Virus record (IMG/VR): IMGVR_UViG_3300017788_000137 | Location: 1-27,614 of that record | DNA: 27,614 nt | Source: a virus | Strand: one strand, 5' to 3' | Part shown: positions 1,368-16,752 of the stretch, one piece after another | How positions within the stretch are numbered: the first letter of the stretch is position 1 | How the letters are laid out: every line of letters starts with the position of its first letter | Made by a program: the position numbers and the translations under genes | The notes under the pieces: model-generated | The model's database searches: none | The model's input: only the letters and a program-made list of their open reading frames with translations | Told to the model about the DNA's origin: nothing

Positions 1368-1508
1368 GTGGACTTTCTTCATCATCCTGCGTTCTGGATC
1401 ATCGTCGCTGCTGGTAGCGAGCTGATCGGCATGTCCAAGCTCAAGGACAACAGCATCATCCAGTTGGTGTTTCACATCCTCCGCAGCATCAAGCCAAAAA
1501 AGCCCTAG
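1368..1508 (+). CDS. 46-residue membrane protein, zero-frame product of a likely frameshift gene
   Basis: Starts at a GTG 3 nt after the preceding TGA and reads MDFLHHPAFWIIVAAGSELI, then GMSKLKDNSIIQLVFHILRS, ending SIKPKKP. The stretch AFWIIVAAGSELIGM and the amphipathic IIQLVFHILRSI could sit in or on the membrane. It is a very small lysis-region protein and possibly a holin. Its last codons lie on the heptamer A AAA AAG, read in the zero frame just before the TAG, so some ribosomes should slip into the next frame (see 1496-1551). Confidence 0.7.
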   Translation: MDFLHHPAFWIIVAAGSELIGMSKLKDNSIIQLVFHILRSIKPKKP

Positions 1509-1551
1509 AAGTTGGCTGGCGCCGGTGGTGGTTTGAGCTGACCCTACCGGC
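1496..1551 (+). other. Putative -1 programmed ribosomal frameshift signal
   Basis: The slippery heptamer A_AAA_AAG (1496-1502, dnaX type) lies in the zero frame one codon before the TAG stop. A GC-rich stem can form downstream: GCCGGT (1521-1526) with ACCGGC (1546-1551), extended by GGT/ACC (1527-1529 with 1541-1543, two bases bulged). Shifting by -1 opens a frame that has no ATG, GTG or TTG in the overlap. The spacer to this stem is 18 nt, longer than usual. A homopolymer sequencing error is the main alternative. Confidence 0.55.
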
Positions 1552-1726
1552 CAAGCTGGACCAGGCCGAAGCTGACTGGCACGCAGCACAGCCGAAAGAG
1601 CCAGAGCCGGTGATCGTCGAGCACCCTGTTGACGATGAGCTGCAGACTGGCGACAGCCGCCTGCTTGGTGGCGCAATGTCCATCCATGCACCGTGGCAAC
1701 GTGGCGAAGACACCAGTCAGACTTGA
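1502..1726 (+). CDS. Downstream frame of the frameshift gene (C-terminal extension)
   Basis: Open in the -1 frame from the slippery site to TGA 1724-1726. It encodes 74 residues: ALEVGWRRWWFELTLPAKLD, then a charged Glu/Pro-rich tail. A Trp/Arg amphipathic patch (GWRRWWFEL) is followed by a helix and a disordered acidic segment. No standard start codon precedes this peptide in frame after the last in-frame stop, which is why I treat it as the extension of the 46-residue protein (fusion about 119 residues). Its end overlaps the probable start of the endolysin. Function unknown; by context part of lysis. Confidence 0.55.
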   Translation, partial: ALEVGWRRWWFELTLPAKLDQAEADWHAAQPKEPEPVIVEHPVDDELQTGDSRLLGGAMSIHAPWQRGEDTSQT

Positions 1727-2774
1727 ATCGTTATTTCGTTACTGGCGTGGGTTGCCGCACCAAGCCGCAGCCATCGTCGAACTTGAAGCAGCACTGCTCA
1801 AGGCTGCGCCGGATCTGCTGAACCGCGATCAGCCGTGGTTTAGCACATGGTCACAAGATGGCAAGCAAACTGACCTAACCGCAGCACTCAAGCTGATCCA
1901 GGACTTCGAGGGCTGCCACCTTGAGGCATACCTTTGTCCGGCTGGTGTACGGACAATCGGCTGGGGCACCACACGCTACAGCGACGGCAGGCGCGTAAAG
2001 CAAGGCGACAAGATCAATCGCGTCGAGGCTGATATGCTCCTGCGACAGGAGGTTGATCGCATTGCTGAGAAGCTGCGCGCCACCGTGCCGCATTGGCAGC
2101 AGATGGAAGATCACCAGAAGTGTGCACTGGTGTCGTTTGCCTACAACCTAGGCTCGGGTTTCTACGGTGCCAAGGATTTTGAGACCATCACCGCCAAGCT
2201 GCGCGACCGCAAATGGTCTGAGGTGCCTGCTGCACTGCTGTTGTACCGCAACCCCGGCAGCAGCTTCGAGGCTGGTCTGAAGCGCCGCCGTGAAGCAGAA
2301 GGCAGGCTATGGAGTGGCAGTAAGGCAGCACCACAGATTCAGCAGCAACCGGCCAAGCTGACACCTGATAGTCCGTTCGCATCACGCATCACGCCACATA
2401 TCCGCATCGGCGAGTTTGCACTCGATCAAGAAGCAAGGCGCTTTGATCATCAGCACCAGGTCGATACTGCGGCAGAGCTGGCGGCATTTCTTGAGCGGAT
2501 GCGTGGCCAATTTGGCAGCAAGCCGGTGGTCATCACCAGCGGCTATCGGCCACCTGCGGTCAATGCAGCGGTCGGCGGTGCTAAGCAGTCAGAGCACCTG
2601 TACTCACGCGCTGGTGAGGGCGCCGTTGATTTTTACATCGTCGGCGCTGACATGATGGCGGTGCAAAAATGGTGCGACAAAGAGTGGCCATACTCGCTGG
2701 GCTATGCCGCACCGCAGTTCATACACCTAGGACGGCGTGCTGATAAGTCAAGACGCAGGTGGGATTATCGCTAG
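1686..2774 (+). CDS. Endolysin: GH24 muramidase plus M15-type peptidase
   Basis: A peptidoglycan hydrolase with two catalytic domains, 362 residues from the ATG at 1686. The frame is open from 1629, but the first residues from there look like shadow of the frame ending at 1726; a GTG at 1701 is also possible. GH24 lysozyme domain, about residues 65-210: FEG with catalytic E75, then C84 and T90 in TIGWGTT, fitting the E-8-(D/C)-5-T pattern. M15-like domain, about 235-362: ITSGYRPP (R287), SEH (H304), AVDF (D315) and FIHLG (H347), the usual zinc-peptidase ligands. A Gln/Pro linker joins the two. It should cut both glycan and peptide bonds. No signal peptide, so it depends on a holin. Confidence 0.9.
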   Translation: MHRGNVAKTPVRLESLFRYWRGLPHQAAAIVELEAALLKAAPDLLNRDQPWFSTWSQDGKQTDLTAALKLIQDFEGCHLEAYLCPAGVRTIGWGTTRYSDGRRVKQGDKINRVEADMLLRQEVDRIAEKLRATVPHWQQMEDHQKCALVSFAYNLGSGFYGAKDFETITAKLRDRKWSEVPAALLLYRNPGSSFEAGLKRRREAEGRLWSGSKAAPQIQQQPAKLTPDSPFASRITPHIRIGEFALDQEARRFDHQHQVDTAAELAAFLERMRGQFGSKPVVITSGYRPPAVNAAVGGAKQSEHLYSRAGEGAVDFYIVGADMMAVQKWCDKEWPYSLGYAAPQFIHLGRRADKSRRRWDYR

Positions 2775-2802
2775 ACTGTTGTCGCAGCCGCTACACAACG
2801 GC

Positions 2803-3657
2803 ATGGCGATCACCACTACAAGGCTGACGCCAGAGCTGTTAGAGGTACGCATACCGTACAACAGCTTCAAGGATTCCACAACCTTTCTGCTGGCATCCGA
2901 CATCCATTTGGATAATCCTAAATGTGACCGCAAGCTATTCCTGCAGCATCTTGATGAGTGCCGAGCCTTAAATGGCAAGGCGCTTTTTTTTGGTGATGTG
3001 ATGTGCCTGATGCAGGGCAAGAAAGACAGACGCGGCAGCAAAGGTGACATCAGGCCTGAGCATCTCGGCGGTAATTACTTTGATCTGGTCTTCCGTGAAT
3101 CCGCCGACCTATTGAAGCCATACGGCGACATGATTCTGATGATGGGCGACGGCAACCATGAAACCGCTGTCCTCAATAACCAAGAGATTGACCCGCTAGA
3201 GAACGTGGTCCGGTTGATGCGTAACGATGGCGCCGTCACCGAGCACATGGGCTATCAAGGTTTTGTGCGGTTTGTATTTATGCAGCCCGATGGTGGTGCT
3301 GTTAGACGCTCTGTGCTGTTCTTTCACCATGGCGCATGGGGCGGCATCGTTACCAAAGGCACCATGGGCGGCGGTCGCTATTCGCAAATAGCGCCTGATG
3401 CTGACATCGTGCTCAATGGTCACAACCATGAGCGCACCATGGTCGCACTTCCGTGCTACCGGATCAACGACAATGGCAATGCATGGATTGAACAGCGCTG
3501 GCACCTGCAAACTGGCACCTACAAACAAGAGTTTGGCGCTACTGGTGGATGGGCGATTGAACGGATCGTGATGCCCAAAAGCCTTGGCGGGATATGGCTG
3601 ACGCTACAACCACGAAAGCGTGGCGGCGTTGATATTTCCTGCAGACCAACCGTATGA
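2803..3657 (+). CDS. Calcineurin-like metallophosphoesterase
   Basis: 284 residues. All five metal-binding blocks of the family are present in order: SDIHLD, FFGDVM, MGDGNHE, FFHHGAW and LNGHNHE. The enzyme should be a dinuclear-metal phosphoesterase or nuclease; the substrate is not evident. I chose the ATG at 2803, 28 nt after the endolysin stop. A longer reading from 2737 would overlap the endolysin and adds residues unlike the rest. It overlaps the next small gene by ATGA. Its place between endolysin and HNH gene suggests either lysis-region cargo or a DNA/RNA end-processing role. Confidence 0.85.
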   Translation: MAITTTRLTPELLEVRIPYNSFKDSTTFLLASDIHLDNPKCDRKLFLQHLDECRALNGKALFFGDVMCLMQGKKDRRGSKGDIRPEHLGGNYFDLVFRESADLLKPYGDMILMMGDGNHETAVLNNQEIDPLENVVRLMRNDGAVTEHMGYQGFVRFVFMQPDGGAVRRSVLFFHHGAWGGIVTKGTMGGGRYSQIAPDADIVLNGHNHERTMVALPCYRINDNGNAWIEQRWHLQTGTYKQEFGATGGWAIERIVMPKSLGGIWLTLQPRKRGGVDISCRPTV

Positions 3658-3836: not shown

Positions 3837-4119
3837 AGGCTCTAACCTCATCCCGAAACGCAATGCAAAACACCAGTTCAGGCAACAGATCTTTGAGGCA
3901 TGGAGCCATGAGTGCGCGTACTGCGGCGCAGAGCCTGACACGTTAGATCACGTCAAGCCACGGCACAAGGGTGGCGCCACAGTTGCTTGCAATCTTGTAC
4001 CGGCGTGTCAGATTTGCAACCGTAAAAAGGGCAGCGAAGACTGGCGCGACTGGTTCAGCCGTCAAGATTCGTGGACAACAGCTCGCGTGCTAAGGATTCA
4101 GGATTGGACGCTTGATTAA
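3820..4119 (+). CDS. HNH endonuclease
   Basis: 99 residues with a GTG start. It has the compact HNH fold with zinc cysteines: C32-x2-C35 (CAYC) and C63-x2-C66 (CQIC). The catalytic core is DHVKPRHKGG (D43-H44) followed by N58 (CNLVPAC) and N67. Phage HNH nucleases of this size act in packaging, in cutting DNA, or as free-standing homing enzymes. Here it is the last gene of the plus-strand late block and converges on the sigma factor gene, overlapping its stop by 4 nt. No terminator hairpin is visible at the junction. Confidence 0.85.
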   Translation: MDHQIEGSNLIPKRNAKHQFRQQIFEAWSHECAYCGAEPDTLDHVKPRHKGGATVACNLVPACQICNRKKGSEDWRDWFSRQDSWTTARVLRIQDWTLD

Positions 4120-4237
4120 GCATTTGGTGGTAAAAAATTAACGCTTGCCATGCCTGCCTGTGCTCGATGCACATACCATTCAGGCACACGCGATAGATAT
4201 GCCCCACCTTGTGAATCGTTGGTTTCGACATGTCCAA
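4055..4237 (-). CDS. Possible overlapping small gene inside the sigma-factor 3' end
   Basis: A 60-residue frame (start at 4237, or the second ATG at 4231) lying in another frame over the last ~40 codons of the sigma gene and over the 3' end of the antisense HNH gene. Its sequence (MSKPTIHKVGHIYRVCLNGM, then CIEHRQAWQALIFYHQML) looks more protein-like than the sigma C-terminal extension it overlaps. It could be a real small gene, or the sigma C-terminus may be the shadow. I cannot decide from composition alone. Confidence 0.4.
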   Translation of the reverse strand: MDMSKPTIHKVGHIYRVCLNGMCIEHRQAWQALIFYHQMLNQASNPESLARELLSTNLDG

Positions 4238-5111
4238 GGGGGGTATCGTCCAAAGGGTTACTCATCAGCATACGCAGCCGTTGCAGGCCACGCTTCTCTA
4301 GGTTCTGCAATCTTGTCTTGCTAATGCCCATACGCTGTTCCAGTTCAGACCAACTCACAGGCCTGGCAAGGCTTCTGGCTTTAAGTATCCGTTTGGTTCG
4401 ACCGTCTAGTTTTGCTTCAAATATCTCCATCATGTCGCGTATTTCTTGCCGCGTTTCAACTAAATCATCCTCGTATTTAGGATCAGCGATGTTATCGCAA
4501 ATGGATGTGGTTTCTGTTTCAGCTACCTTTTGATCAAGACTGGTGACGCGATAGGTTTGTTTCATCAGATATGACAACTGTTCTGTTTTAATCCCCATTG
4601 CTGCTGCCGTTTCAGCCATGCTTGGTTGGCGCCCTAGTTTATGGCTAAGGTCTTGCACCGTGCGGCCTAGCTTGTATAGCGTCTCATGCAGGCTGGTTGG
4701 CAGCCGGATCATGTCATCGCTTTGGATCAATGCACGGGTGATGCCCTGGCGGATCCACCAGTAGGCATAGGTCGAGAACTTGTAGCCCCTTGATGGGTCA
4801 AACAACTCAACCGCACGCGCCAAGCCGATATTGCCCTCTTGAATCAGGTCCATCAGCTCAAGGCTTTTGTTGCTGCGTTTGTCGTACTTGCGTGCTACAT
4901 GCACCACAAGCTGCAGATTGGACTGGATAAACCGCTGCCGTGCGCGTTCACCGCTGCGCACTTCGCGCTGCTCTGCAACGGTCAGTTTCCTTTCTAGATT
5001 CTTTAATTCTTGCCATTTTGCTACACGCCTGCCTAGCTGTATCTCTTGTTGCGGTGTCAACAGCGGATATTTGGCAATACTGTTGAGATAGTCTTTAACG
5101 TTGTCAGCCAT
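4116..5111 (-). CDS. RNA polymerase sigma-70 family factor, cyanobacterial primary-like
   Basis: 331 residues. Region 1.2: VKDYLNSIAKYPLLTPQQEI (5-24). Region 2, about 57-130: DLIQEGNIGLARAVELFDP and YKFSTYAYWWIRQGITRAL, keeping the aromatic melting residues and the Gln/Thr that read the -10 element. Region 3, about 134-196: IRLPTSLHETLYKL. Region 4.2 helix-turn-helix, about 251-283: SWSELEQRMGISKTRLQNLE. The core is very like cyanobacterial group 1/2 sigma factors, so it should redirect host RNA polymerase to phage promoters. A tail of about 48 residues after region 4 is unusual. The start overlaps the divergent gene at 5110 within a single CATG. Confidence 0.92.
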   Translation of the reverse strand: MADNVKDYLNSIAKYPLLTPQQEIQLGRRVAKWQELKNLERKLTVAEQREVRSGERARQRFIQSNLQLVVHVARKYDKRSNKSLELMDLIQEGNIGLARAVELFDPSRGYKFSTYAYWWIRQGITRALIQSDDMIRLPTSLHETLYKLGRTVQDLSHKLGRQPSMAETAAAMGIKTEQLSYLMKQTYRVTSLDQKVAETETTSICDNIADPKYEDDLVETRQEIRDMMEIFEAKLDGRTKRILKARSLARPVSWSELEQRMGISKTRLQNLEKRGLQRLRMLMSNPLDDTPLGHVETNDSQGGAYLSRVPEWYVHRAQAGMASVNFLPPNA

Positions 5112-14726: not shown

Positions 14727-15023
14727 GTGAAACAACCGAAAATTGGAGGTTTGCAGCCGCTCGGCACGTTCCAACAAACTGGCGAAACGCTCGCCCGCAT
14801 GATCGCCAAGGGACTGTGCACCCTGGACGACCTTGACGCCAGGCCGCCTGGTTCAATTGATTTGCCCATGCCTGAGTACCGAAACATCGCCCGTGATTGG
14901 ATTACGGGCAACCGCAACCGATGGGCTGAAATCAAAAACGAGTACGGGTCAGCTTCGGAGCCAGTAATCGAGCTGGTTTCCCCAAGAGACCTGCCCACAA
15001 CTGAACAACCACTACCGTTCTGA
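14727..15023 (+). CDS. Hypothetical protein
   Basis: 98 residues with a GTG start 3 nt after the previous stop. MKQPKIGGLQPLGTFQQTGE, then LARMIAKGLCTLDDLDARPP and a helical DWITGNRNRWAEIKNEY. Pro-rich C-terminal end (PTTEQPLPF). The TLDDLD region suggests a small helical motif. Unknown function. Confidence 0.6.
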   Translation: MKQPKIGGLQPLGTFQQTGETLARMIAKGLCTLDDLDARPPGSIDLPMPEYRNIARDWITGNRNRWAEIKNEYGSASEPVIELVSPRDLPTTEQPLPF

Positions 15024-15368: not shown

Positions 15369-15962
15369 ATGGTTATCGCTCCTGAATTTATCGATCAGAC
15401 CCCAGTTGAAGACCTCAAGCCATACGACAAAAACCCAAGGACCCATAGCGCAACTCAAATCGAACGCCTGGTGAACTCCATGAAAGAGTTCGGGTTCACT
15501 AATCCACTTCTGATCGATGACGATCAAAACGTCATCGCTGGTCACGGTCGCCTTGAAGCAGCAAAAATCCTTGGCCTTGAAACTGTCCCAACAATTACTC
15601 TGTCGCACCTAACGCCAGAGCAAAGGCGTGCTTACGTTATCGCTGATAACCAGCTAGCTCTTAACTCTGGTTGGGATGACGACCTGCTCCAATCAGAAAT
15701 TAACGCACTCGGTGAACTTGGCTACGACTTGACCCTTCTCGGCTGGGGCGATGAACTTCCCAGTTTCGGTGAAGAAATCGACCTGTCCGCCCTAGAAGAC
15801 GAAGAAGACTTGTCCGAATACGCTGCTGGCGTGCGCAAAGCGATTCAGATCGACTTCGAACCAGAAGACTACGAAGAGGCGCAGGCACTGGTATCCGCAG
15901 CTCGCAAGTCTGGTAAATATGTCGGCATGCTTTTAATCAATGCACTTAAAGACGATGCTTGA
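15369..15962 (+). CDS. ParB/Srx-fold nuclease-like domain protein
   Basis: 197 residues. Residues 13-100 are a ParB N-terminal/sulfiredoxin-like domain: LKPYDKNPRTHSATQIERLV, FGFTNPLLIDDDQNVIAGHG (GHGR motif), then LTPEQRRAYVIADNQLALNS. In many phages this domain stands alone or is fused to DNA methyltransferases; here no methyltransferase domain follows, only an acidic region and a C-terminal alpha/beta segment (residues 155-197). It overlaps the glycosyltransferase start by 8 nt, indicating a joint operon with the DNA-modifying enzymes. Possible roles are NTP-dependent DNA binding or nicking. Confidence 0.85.
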   Translation: MVIAPEFIDQTPVEDLKPYDKNPRTHSATQIERLVNSMKEFGFTNPLLIDDDQNVIAGHGRLEAAKILGLETVPTITLSHLTPEQRRAYVIADNQLALNSGWDDDLLQSEINALGELGYDLTLLGWGDELPSFGEEIDLSALEDEEDLSEYAAGVRKAIQIDFEPEDYEEAQALVSAARKSGKYVGMLLINALKDDA

Positions 15963-16752
15963 TTATCAAATCGCTATTCCCTCTTACAAGCGAACGGAAA
16001 CACTAGCGAAAGCAACGCTGTCTATGTTAAAAAAACATGGTTGCGACTTTTCGAACGTAACCATCTTTACCGCCGACAAAAACGAAACCAAAGCCTATTC
16101 CGCCATGCTTGGCATGGTCGGCATTCGAGCTGAAGTAGTTACTGGCGAACCAGGCATCGGCAAGCAACGCATCTTTATTAACAAACACTACCCAGTTGAC
16201 ACGAGGGTTCTCAGCCTCGATGACGATATTTATGCCTTGTCGATCGTTGATGAAAACAAAAAACTGAATCCCTGTGATTGGACAATCGACCGCATTGCCT
16301 TAAAAGGGTTTCAAACCTGCGAAAAGGTCAACGCAAAAATGTGGGGAATCAATCCCGTTGAAAATGGCTTCTATATGGATCGCACTACCTCGATTGGCCT
16401 GCGATACATCTGTGCCAACTTCTTCGGGTCTTACGCCGGTGATGCTGTTTGGACCGCCACAGACCGTAAAGACTTCTCTTCAGGCGAAGACTTTGAATCC
16501 ACGCTTCGATCATTCGTGCAATACAAAGGCGTCGTCCGCCTAGACGGTATTTGCCCTAAAACTAAATACTTCGCGCAAGGTGGCATCTGCGCTGAAATAG
16601 GCGGTGAAGACAAACGCAAACTAGACCATCACAAGCACCTCACCGAAATCGCTGCACGCTTTCCTCACCTATGCAAAACCTACAAAAAATCAGACGGCAC
16701 TACTAACATCAAACTAAAACCAGTCACACGCGGCAAAATTGCTTGGCTATGA
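15955..16752 (+). CDS. GT-A glycosyltransferase, likely TET/JBP-associated (TAGT-like)
   Basis: 265 residues. GT-A nucleotide-sugar fold: IAIPSYKR at 7-13, FTADKNE near 38-44, the metal-binding LSLDDDI at 87-92 (DxD), and GEDFEST at 177-183, where the ED could supply the catalytic base. The sequence style and the 4-nt overlap with a TET/JBP oxygenase fit the glycosyltransferases that place a sugar on hydroxymethylated bases in phage DNA. Sugar donor and base are unknown. A general GT2 role on cell surface is the alternative, but the overlap argues for DNA. I start it at the ATG at 15955 instead of 15940. Confidence 0.75.
   Translation: MLDYQIAIPSYKRTETLAKATLSMLKKHGCDFSNVTIFTADKNETKAYSAMLGMVGIRAEVVTGEPGIGKQRIFINKHYPVDTRVLSLDDDIYALSIVDENKKLNPCDWTIDRIALKGFQTCEKVNAKMWGINPVENGFYMDRTTSIGLRYICANFFGSYAGDAVWTATDRKDFSSGEDFESTLRSFVQYKGVVRLDGICPKTKYFAQGGICAEIGGEDKRKLDHHKHLTEIAARFPHLCKTYKKSDGTTNIKLKPVTRGKIAWL

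Follow-up and report, generated by a model that had tools for sequence, protein, structure and literature searches.

Among tailed phages, the tail-assembly chaperone genes provide the best-known cases of programmed frameshifting. These genes, lambda G/GT and P2 E/E+E' among them, lie between the genes for the tail tube or major tail protein and the tape measure. In each case, a canonical heptamer and a single start give a short product and a C-terminally extended product. The dnaX gene of E. coli carries the heptamer A_AAA_AAG with a downstream stem-loop, and its frameshift shortens the product. For P2, PMC3091744 describes E and E+E' as short and extended products of one start and a -1 frameshift. 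Dual-start holins, such as lambda S and SPP1 24.1 and 26, also draw a pair of related membrane proteins, whose functions may be opposed, from one gene of the lysis cassette (for SPP1, PMC6316719). The two-component holins XhlA and XhlB of PBSX and SPP1 are a pair of small membrane proteins, one of them with a coiled-coil-like part, whose genes neighbour that of the endolysin; PMC6316719 places the membrane helix of XhlA at the C-terminus. In MS2, the lysis gene is tied to a coat-gene frameshift in a different arrangement (it is named in PMC10885494 and among the references of PMC5009743). For tailed phages, no report of frameshifting in a membrane gene of the lysis cassette was found in the accessible text of the open-licence PubMed Central literature, a body that includes PMC3483164, PMC3556154, PMC7260188 and PMC13313380 and leaves subscription papers mostly outside.

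Here we describe a candidate for such a gene in a 27,614-base IMG/VR record, hereafter the window (the whole stretch of DNA that was analysed). It is unrelated to the tail chaperones. Briefly, it is a membrane gene flanked by the tail-fibre region and the endolysin, where the chaperone genes are flanked by those for tail tube and tape measure. The features needed to follow the argument, in window coordinates, are these.

1116-1364, + strand: 82-aa gene encoding an N-terminal membrane helix and a coiled-coil-like region; matches phrog_26178 (1.6e-39)
1368-1508, + strand: zero-frame ORF encoding the 46-residue short form; short membrane helix, then an amphipathic segment and a Lys cluster
1496-1502, + strand: slippery heptamer A_AAA_AAG, in the zero frame and within the frame overlap, one codon 5' of the stop
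1502-1726, + strand: -1-frame tail, 74 codons and TGA; helix, Pro-rich linker and C-terminal motif
1506-1508, + strand: zero-frame stop TAG, one codon past the heptamer
1514-1562, + strand: predicted GC-rich stem-loop, a possible stimulator; z -2.84
1661-1696, + strand: C-terminal tail motif LLGGAMSIHAPW, read in the -1 frame; the same or a similar end occurs in most listed tails
1701-2774, + strand: endolysin with phage lysozyme GH24 and peptidase M15_3 domains; overlaps the tail end

The zero-frame ORF runs from GTG 1368 to TAG 1506-1508 (46 codons, + strand) and its 3' end reads CCA AAA AAG CCC TAG. The short form that it encodes matches phrog_22542 (9.4e-28), a family without assigned function. 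The -1 frame is open from 1418 to 1723 and is closed by TGA at 1724-1726. Its first ATG is at 1676, and the open stretch holds no earlier ATG, GTG or TTG. A slip at the heptamer would add the 74 codons past the slip site to 45, giving a fusion of 119 residues. A preliminary description of this DNA had claimed the heptamer one codon before TAG, the 74 open codons with no normal start in the overlap, and the 119-residue fusion with an acidic tail. The sequence bears out the first two, and the reading-frame arithmetic agrees with the third. The tail has a net charge of -8, is hydrophilic and contains no membrane stretch.

Our main reading, to which we give a probability of about 0.9, is that programmed -1 ribosomal frameshifting yields two proteins from one start. 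A ribosome that keeps to the zero frame would stop at TAG 1506 and release a membrane protein of 46 residues. Some ribosomes would instead slip back by one base on A_AAA_AAG, most likely with two tRNA-Lys(UUU) on AAA and AAG, and the downstream stem-loop would aid the slip. The slipped ribosomes would read 74 more codons to make the 119-residue form, with its acidic tail in the cytoplasm. The slip rate would fix the ratio of the two forms. With the ratio fixed in this way, the tailed form may regulate the short form or link it to a partner.

The pattern alone is not beyond chance in the window. Counting any X_XXY_YYZ with a stop within three codons and both frames open for at least 40 codons, we found 3 places, against a mean of 1.33 (maximum 7) in 60 second-order Markov surrogates. 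Hence, the case rests on relatives, and it is conservation there that lifts the site above chance. Besides the site at 1496, the heptamer at 16258 (+) is inside an ORF at 15940-16752 and was taken as chance. The third place is at 14959 (minus-strand coordinates).

A search with the 74-codon tail gave 238 IMG/VR relatives, and the best 80 of the 238 were taken. Upstream of the tail, the membrane part was located in 75 of them; the tail is in the -1 frame relative to it at every one of the 75. In the other five, which have no membrane part, the tail is near the locus end. These data bear on the possibility that the six-A run was misread or misassembled, so that a normal 119-residue gene looks broken. 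Homopolymers are error-prone in sequencing, so the idea is a natural one. However, the frame relation is the same in 75/75 first-scan loci with a membrane part (best 80 of 238) and in named isolates, and loci with G_GGA_AAG have no such run. We consider the probability of such an error negligible. The preliminary description had raised a run of five or seven A as a threat to the site; instead, the same site recurs in many independent assemblies.

A search that starts from the tail is biased towards tail-bearing loci; scans with the membrane part as sole query avoid this. For these scans, three differently headed alignments were used, with the best 80 matches taken from each. Among the matches listed, 111 of 130 non-redundant loci combine a canonical heptamer zero or one codon before the zero-frame stop with 40 or more codons of -1 tail. 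The rest of the listed 130 comprise four that have the heptamer and then run off the contig, three with a heptamer and a short tail, 11 with a short zero frame and no heptamer, and one with a long zero frame. A scan with the P60-type protein (best 80 of 308) gave 66 non-redundant loci; 65 are long uninterrupted genes and one is an edge case.

The membrane-part profile made 402 matches among 408 loci and the window. Seven of the 408 loci had no match and were dropped (L012, L017, L031, L040, L053, L340 and L344), while the window itself, L081, was left out of the counts. Redundancy was reduced by identical 220-nt stretches to 252 records, one of them cut by a contig edge. Among the matches listed, the 252 divide into 167 with a heptamer (defined for counting as having the stop zero or one codon after it), 70 long, 14 short without a heptamer and the one edge case. 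By type, the 167 listed heptamers are 154 A_AAA_AAG, 11 G_GGA_AAG, one A_AAA_AAC and one G_GGA_AAT. The heptamer is absent from all 70 long records of the entire listed set. Hence, the slippery site and the stop that ends the membrane part occur together. Subtracting seven of the 167 (four contig edges and three short tails) leaves 160 loci, called below the 160 listed loci.

The frameshift arrangement is present in isolate phages including S-CBS3, S-CBS1 and S-EIV1. In the deposited annotations its parts are separate hypothetical proteins in S-CBS3 (gp21 and gp22) and S-CBS1 (gp22 and gp23), and the tail is omitted in KBS-S-2A. The preliminary description had also allowed for homologues with one uninterrupted frame. 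Among the relatives listed, none joins this tail to this membrane part in that way. P60-like phages do have an uninterrupted gene, but its tail is different and unrelated. Compared across relatives, site and frame are conserved among the matches listed. This strongly supports the earlier proposal of a programmed -1 frameshift, of which the 46- and 119-residue products are predictions from sequence.

What is conserved at the site is its nucleotides. All 150 tail-bearing A_AAA_AAG loci among the matches listed have A as the base 5' of AAA AAG. The preceding codons in these loci (GCA, GGA, CCA, GTA, ACA, GAA, CAA, TCA and AAA) specify nine amino acids (A, G, P, V, T, E, Q, S and K). Among the matches listed, A is the last base in 454 of the 2567 A/G/P/V/S/T codons that occur elsewhere in the membrane part. 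Lys codons elsewhere in this listed membrane part are AAG in 217 cases and AAA in 125, and AAA AAG makes up 66 of 224 Lys-Lys pairs. Judged by this codon usage, the heptamer is conserved beyond the needs of the protein. In addition, a -1 stop lies close 5' of the heptamer in 49 of the 160 listed loci, leaving the frame open for at most 12 nt before it. Such a stop confines the shift to the heptamer.

In S-EIV1 and ten other loci, G_GGA_AAG occupies the position of the heptamer, one codon before the stop; nine of the 11, S-EIV1 included, have a full tail. GGGAAAG is the lambda heptamer as well. In a tree of 45 columns, with many forks unresolved, the G_GGA_AAG rows and one G_GGA_AAT row form one set of 11 (support 98/83), nested among A_AAA_AAG rows. 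This replacement argues against transcriptional slippage, in which RNA polymerase would slip on the A run so that edited transcripts carry the fused frame. The run does comprise six, seven or more A at most loci. However, the G_GGA_AAG loci have just three G and three A and keep the tail, and the phase of the A run is fixed relative to the codons. Slippage by the polymerase is thus highly improbable.

Conservation extends to the tail. Over 52 independent pairs, tail differences at codon positions 1, 2 and 3 of the -1 frame number 170, 97 and 552. The same bias is evident in the first 30 nt past the zero-frame stop (26, 17 and 89), before most sporadic internal starts. By this measure, the tail is evolving as -1-frame coding sequence under protein-level selection throughout. 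We conclude that the comparative evidence shows a conserved site, a conserved frame and a selected tail; slippage and its two products would account for all three.

Could the tail be a gene of its own, read by ribosomes that terminate at the zero-frame stop and reinitiate there or just past it? The -1 codon overlapping the stop in the 160 listed loci is CTG in 94, CTA in 43, GTA in 14, TTA in 7 and TTG in 2. CTG is a rare start, and so the 94 loci are compatible with reinitiation, as are the separate downstream ORFs annotated in S-CBS3 and S-CBS1. In one locus without a heptamer (L408, Cyanobium sp. contig, 4129), the tail begins at a GTG within GTGA, overlapping the TGA stop of the membrane gene. 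There, the tail is probably a separate, translationally coupled gene. By contrast, the overlapping codon is CTA, GTA or TTA in 64 of the 160 listed loci, and it is CTA in the window. No -1-frame ATG, GTG or TTG occurs in the overlap or the 30 nt beyond in 124 of the 160 listed, and an SD-like 4-mer precedes such a start in only 6 of the 160. Reinitiation also leaves the invariant heptamer, and its exchange for G_GGA_AAG, unexplained. We regard it as very improbable.

A few loci depart from the common pattern. Weaker sites, A_AAG_AAG in L026 and its near copy L027 and G_AAA_AAG in L035, are followed by an intact tail. L138 keeps A_AAA_AAG and has a -1 stop immediately after it. L275, L276 and L283 have the heptamer without a full tail. 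In L167 the tail and the endolysin share one frame with no stop between them (frame through 1629-2600); a frameshift there, if it occurs, would yield a membrane-tail-endolysin fusion. Neither a heptamer nor a recognisable tail is present in L406 or in the MedDCM-OCT-S37-C6-like L084, L166, L171, L197, L202, L203 and L217. L405, L406, L407 and L409 are binned as Hyphomonadaceae, Blastopirellula, bacterium TMED88 and Planctomycetota; they are probably misbinned cyanophage contigs.

The GC-rich stem previously described 3' of the site is present as a prediction. The segment 1508-1562 folds with an MFE of -26.5 kcal/mol, and 2 of 200 shuffled sequences are as stable. Among the 160 listed loci, 72 divergent ones have a mean z of -1.37 for 55-nt windows starting 5 nt past the heptamer. 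Comparison windows at the same 72 loci give z of -0.2 to -0.4 upstream, and of -0.6 and -0.7 further downstream. The excess of structure at these loci is maximal 5-15 nt downstream of the heptamer. Compensatory changes were sought in the window and 12 hand-chosen tail-scan loci, where 0 of 23 pairs changed on both sides. An energy excess without compensatory pairs makes the stem likely, short of proof.

The heptamer is that of dnaX, and a downstream stem-loop is predicted for this gene too, but here the shift would extend the product and there is no clear upstream SD stimulator. An SD-like sequence upstream of the heptamer was found in only 4 of the 160 listed loci. In E. coli, according to PMC5009743, A_AAA_AAG is prone to shift because there is a single tRNA-Lys; with two lysine tRNAs it would not be. 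The 27,614-base record contains no tRNA genes. A Cyanobium draft genome, which may not be the host, has 36 tRNA genes, including tRNA-Lys(UUU) and no tRNA-Lys(CUU). The parallel with dnaX in having a sole tRNA-Lys(UUU) comes from this one draft genome.

The neighbouring genes point to lysis. In annotated relatives, tail-fibre genes lie upstream and an endolysin lies directly downstream of the frameshift gene. The 82-aa gene adjoins it in 101 of the 160 listed loci, and makes a weak XhlA-type hemolysin match (phrog_937, 0.013). As with XhlA and XhlB, there are two small membrane proteins beside an endolysin, one of them coiled-coil-like. However, the 82-aa partner has its membrane helix at the N-terminus, where XhlA has it at the C-terminus, and there is no significant homology. 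The preliminary placement in a lysis region stands as far as the endolysin directly downstream is concerned; that the gene itself serves lysis is inferred from its place and size, with no match to a named holin family. Following the endolysin, 2737-3657 (+) encodes a phosphoesterase-like protein that matches the DNA repair exonuclease phrog_7339 (3.4e-15). A sigma-70-type factor (regions 1.2-4) is encoded at 4116-5111 (-), and sigma factors are also found near the lysis region in KBS-S-2A and S-CBS1.

The endolysin start in the window is uncertain (GTG 1701 or ATG 1686). In 125 of the 160 listed loci, the tail stop lies within or right beside the gene for a related endolysin. Such overlap could mean that the slip serves mainly to bring ribosomes to the endolysin start, with the tail itself useless, and the 12-codon tail that precedes the endolysin in L283 would fit this account. 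The tail, however, is under protein-level selection throughout. It is also kept, with the heptamer, in T7-like cyanophages where other genes are annotated next (WH11-B, 7B11-B and S-B28), and its motif is found on single-frame membrane proteins elsewhere. Hence, delivery of ribosomes is improbable as the main purpose of the slip.

Those single-frame proteins are informative about the tail. Tails vary strongly in mid-sequence; most end in LGG-x-M-x-I-x-(A/S)-P-W, DDLHIRAPW or DGW-x-I-S variants. The same kind of C-terminal end occurs in the membrane proteins S-CAM7 gp243 (L449:1267-1653) and S-CBP1_0051 (L450:819-1118), both phrog_3316-like and without assigned function. They resemble the predicted 119-residue form in joining a membrane helix to this motif, but they are single-frame, with another membrane segment and no slippery site. 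The phrog_3316 profile did not match the window tail at E up to 0.01, and 4 of 52 tails match. A structural model of the tail (52 sequences) has one long helix and two short strands (pLDDT 78.3, pTM 0.38). A search of solved structures gave no match to either part at E up to 1. Because the same tail end is present on other membrane segments, the comparison suggests that the unit that matters is membrane anchor plus tail, to which the frameshift would be the only access in most relatives.

These observations lend weight to a different view of the protein. The frameshift may be real and the protein not a holin, but an anchor that holds the tail motif for host takeover or has a spanin-like or assembly role, with the short form a by-product or spacer. 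The tail motif is on unrelated membrane anchors; the S-CBP1 gene adjoins thymidylate synthase, with no lysis genes, and the S-CAM7 gene is three genes from a lysin. In S-EIV1, the frameshift gene has no endolysin directly downstream, and no holin family match was obtained. On the other hand, the endolysin is adjacent in 125 of the 160 listed loci. Furthermore, the tail-less L305, L306, L313 and L146 pass straight from one gene to the next, the short-gene stop overlapping the ATG of an ORF that starts like the window endolysin. We see an anchor without holin function as a real possibility, at rather less than even odds.

The short form has a hydrophobic stretch, AFWIIVAAGSELIGM, near its N-terminus (hydropathy 1.71 over 15 residues). 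Its positive C-terminal end predicts an N-out/C-in orientation. The earlier suggestion that one gene would make two topological forms is not upheld, since the tail brings no further membrane segment and, from the distribution of charge, N-out/C-in is predicted for both products. A small protein with a membrane helix beside an endolysin is a holin trait, and the window gene has it, although the helix reaches a hydropathy of only 1.22 over 19 residues. By sequence, the window gene matched no named holin family. Homology to the T7 holin (gp17.5) was considered, and there was no match. A dual-start pattern is also absent from the window gene, which has a single GTG at 1368; the next in-frame ATG, at 1431, is beyond most of the membrane helix.

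Our best guess is a holin-like protein with a tailed form set in ratio by slippage. In its fuller version, which we offer tentatively, the gene would encode a holin-like subunit of a lysis cassette together with the 82-aa protein and the endolysin. The tailed form would be regulatory or partner-binding, and its C-terminal motif would dock a lysis partner. The window gene would then be the frameshift counterpart of the dual-start holin genes. It differs from them in that its predicted products would diverge at the C-terminal end, by a frameshift that adds 74 residues. A further step, attractive but on present evidence unlikely, is that the slip rate, and not a second start or a second gene, fixes the stoichiometry of holin-like protein and tailed regulator in a widespread class of cyanophage lysis genes, and so sets the timing of lysis.

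Frameshifting here looks conserved in a membrane gene beside the endolysin, in siphovirus-like and T7-like cyanophages. The real protein would be split or missed in deposited genomes such as those of S-CBS3, S-CBS1 and KBS-S-2A. The clade in which G_GGA_AAG replaces A_AAA_AAG offers a natural experiment on the requirements of a frameshift site, and the cassette is short and easily tested for asking whether a decoding ratio sets lysis timing. The gene may set how and when cyanophages burst their hosts. If the slip rate does set timing, lysis could respond to host translation, including tRNA-Lys charging, ribosome load, starvation and darkness.
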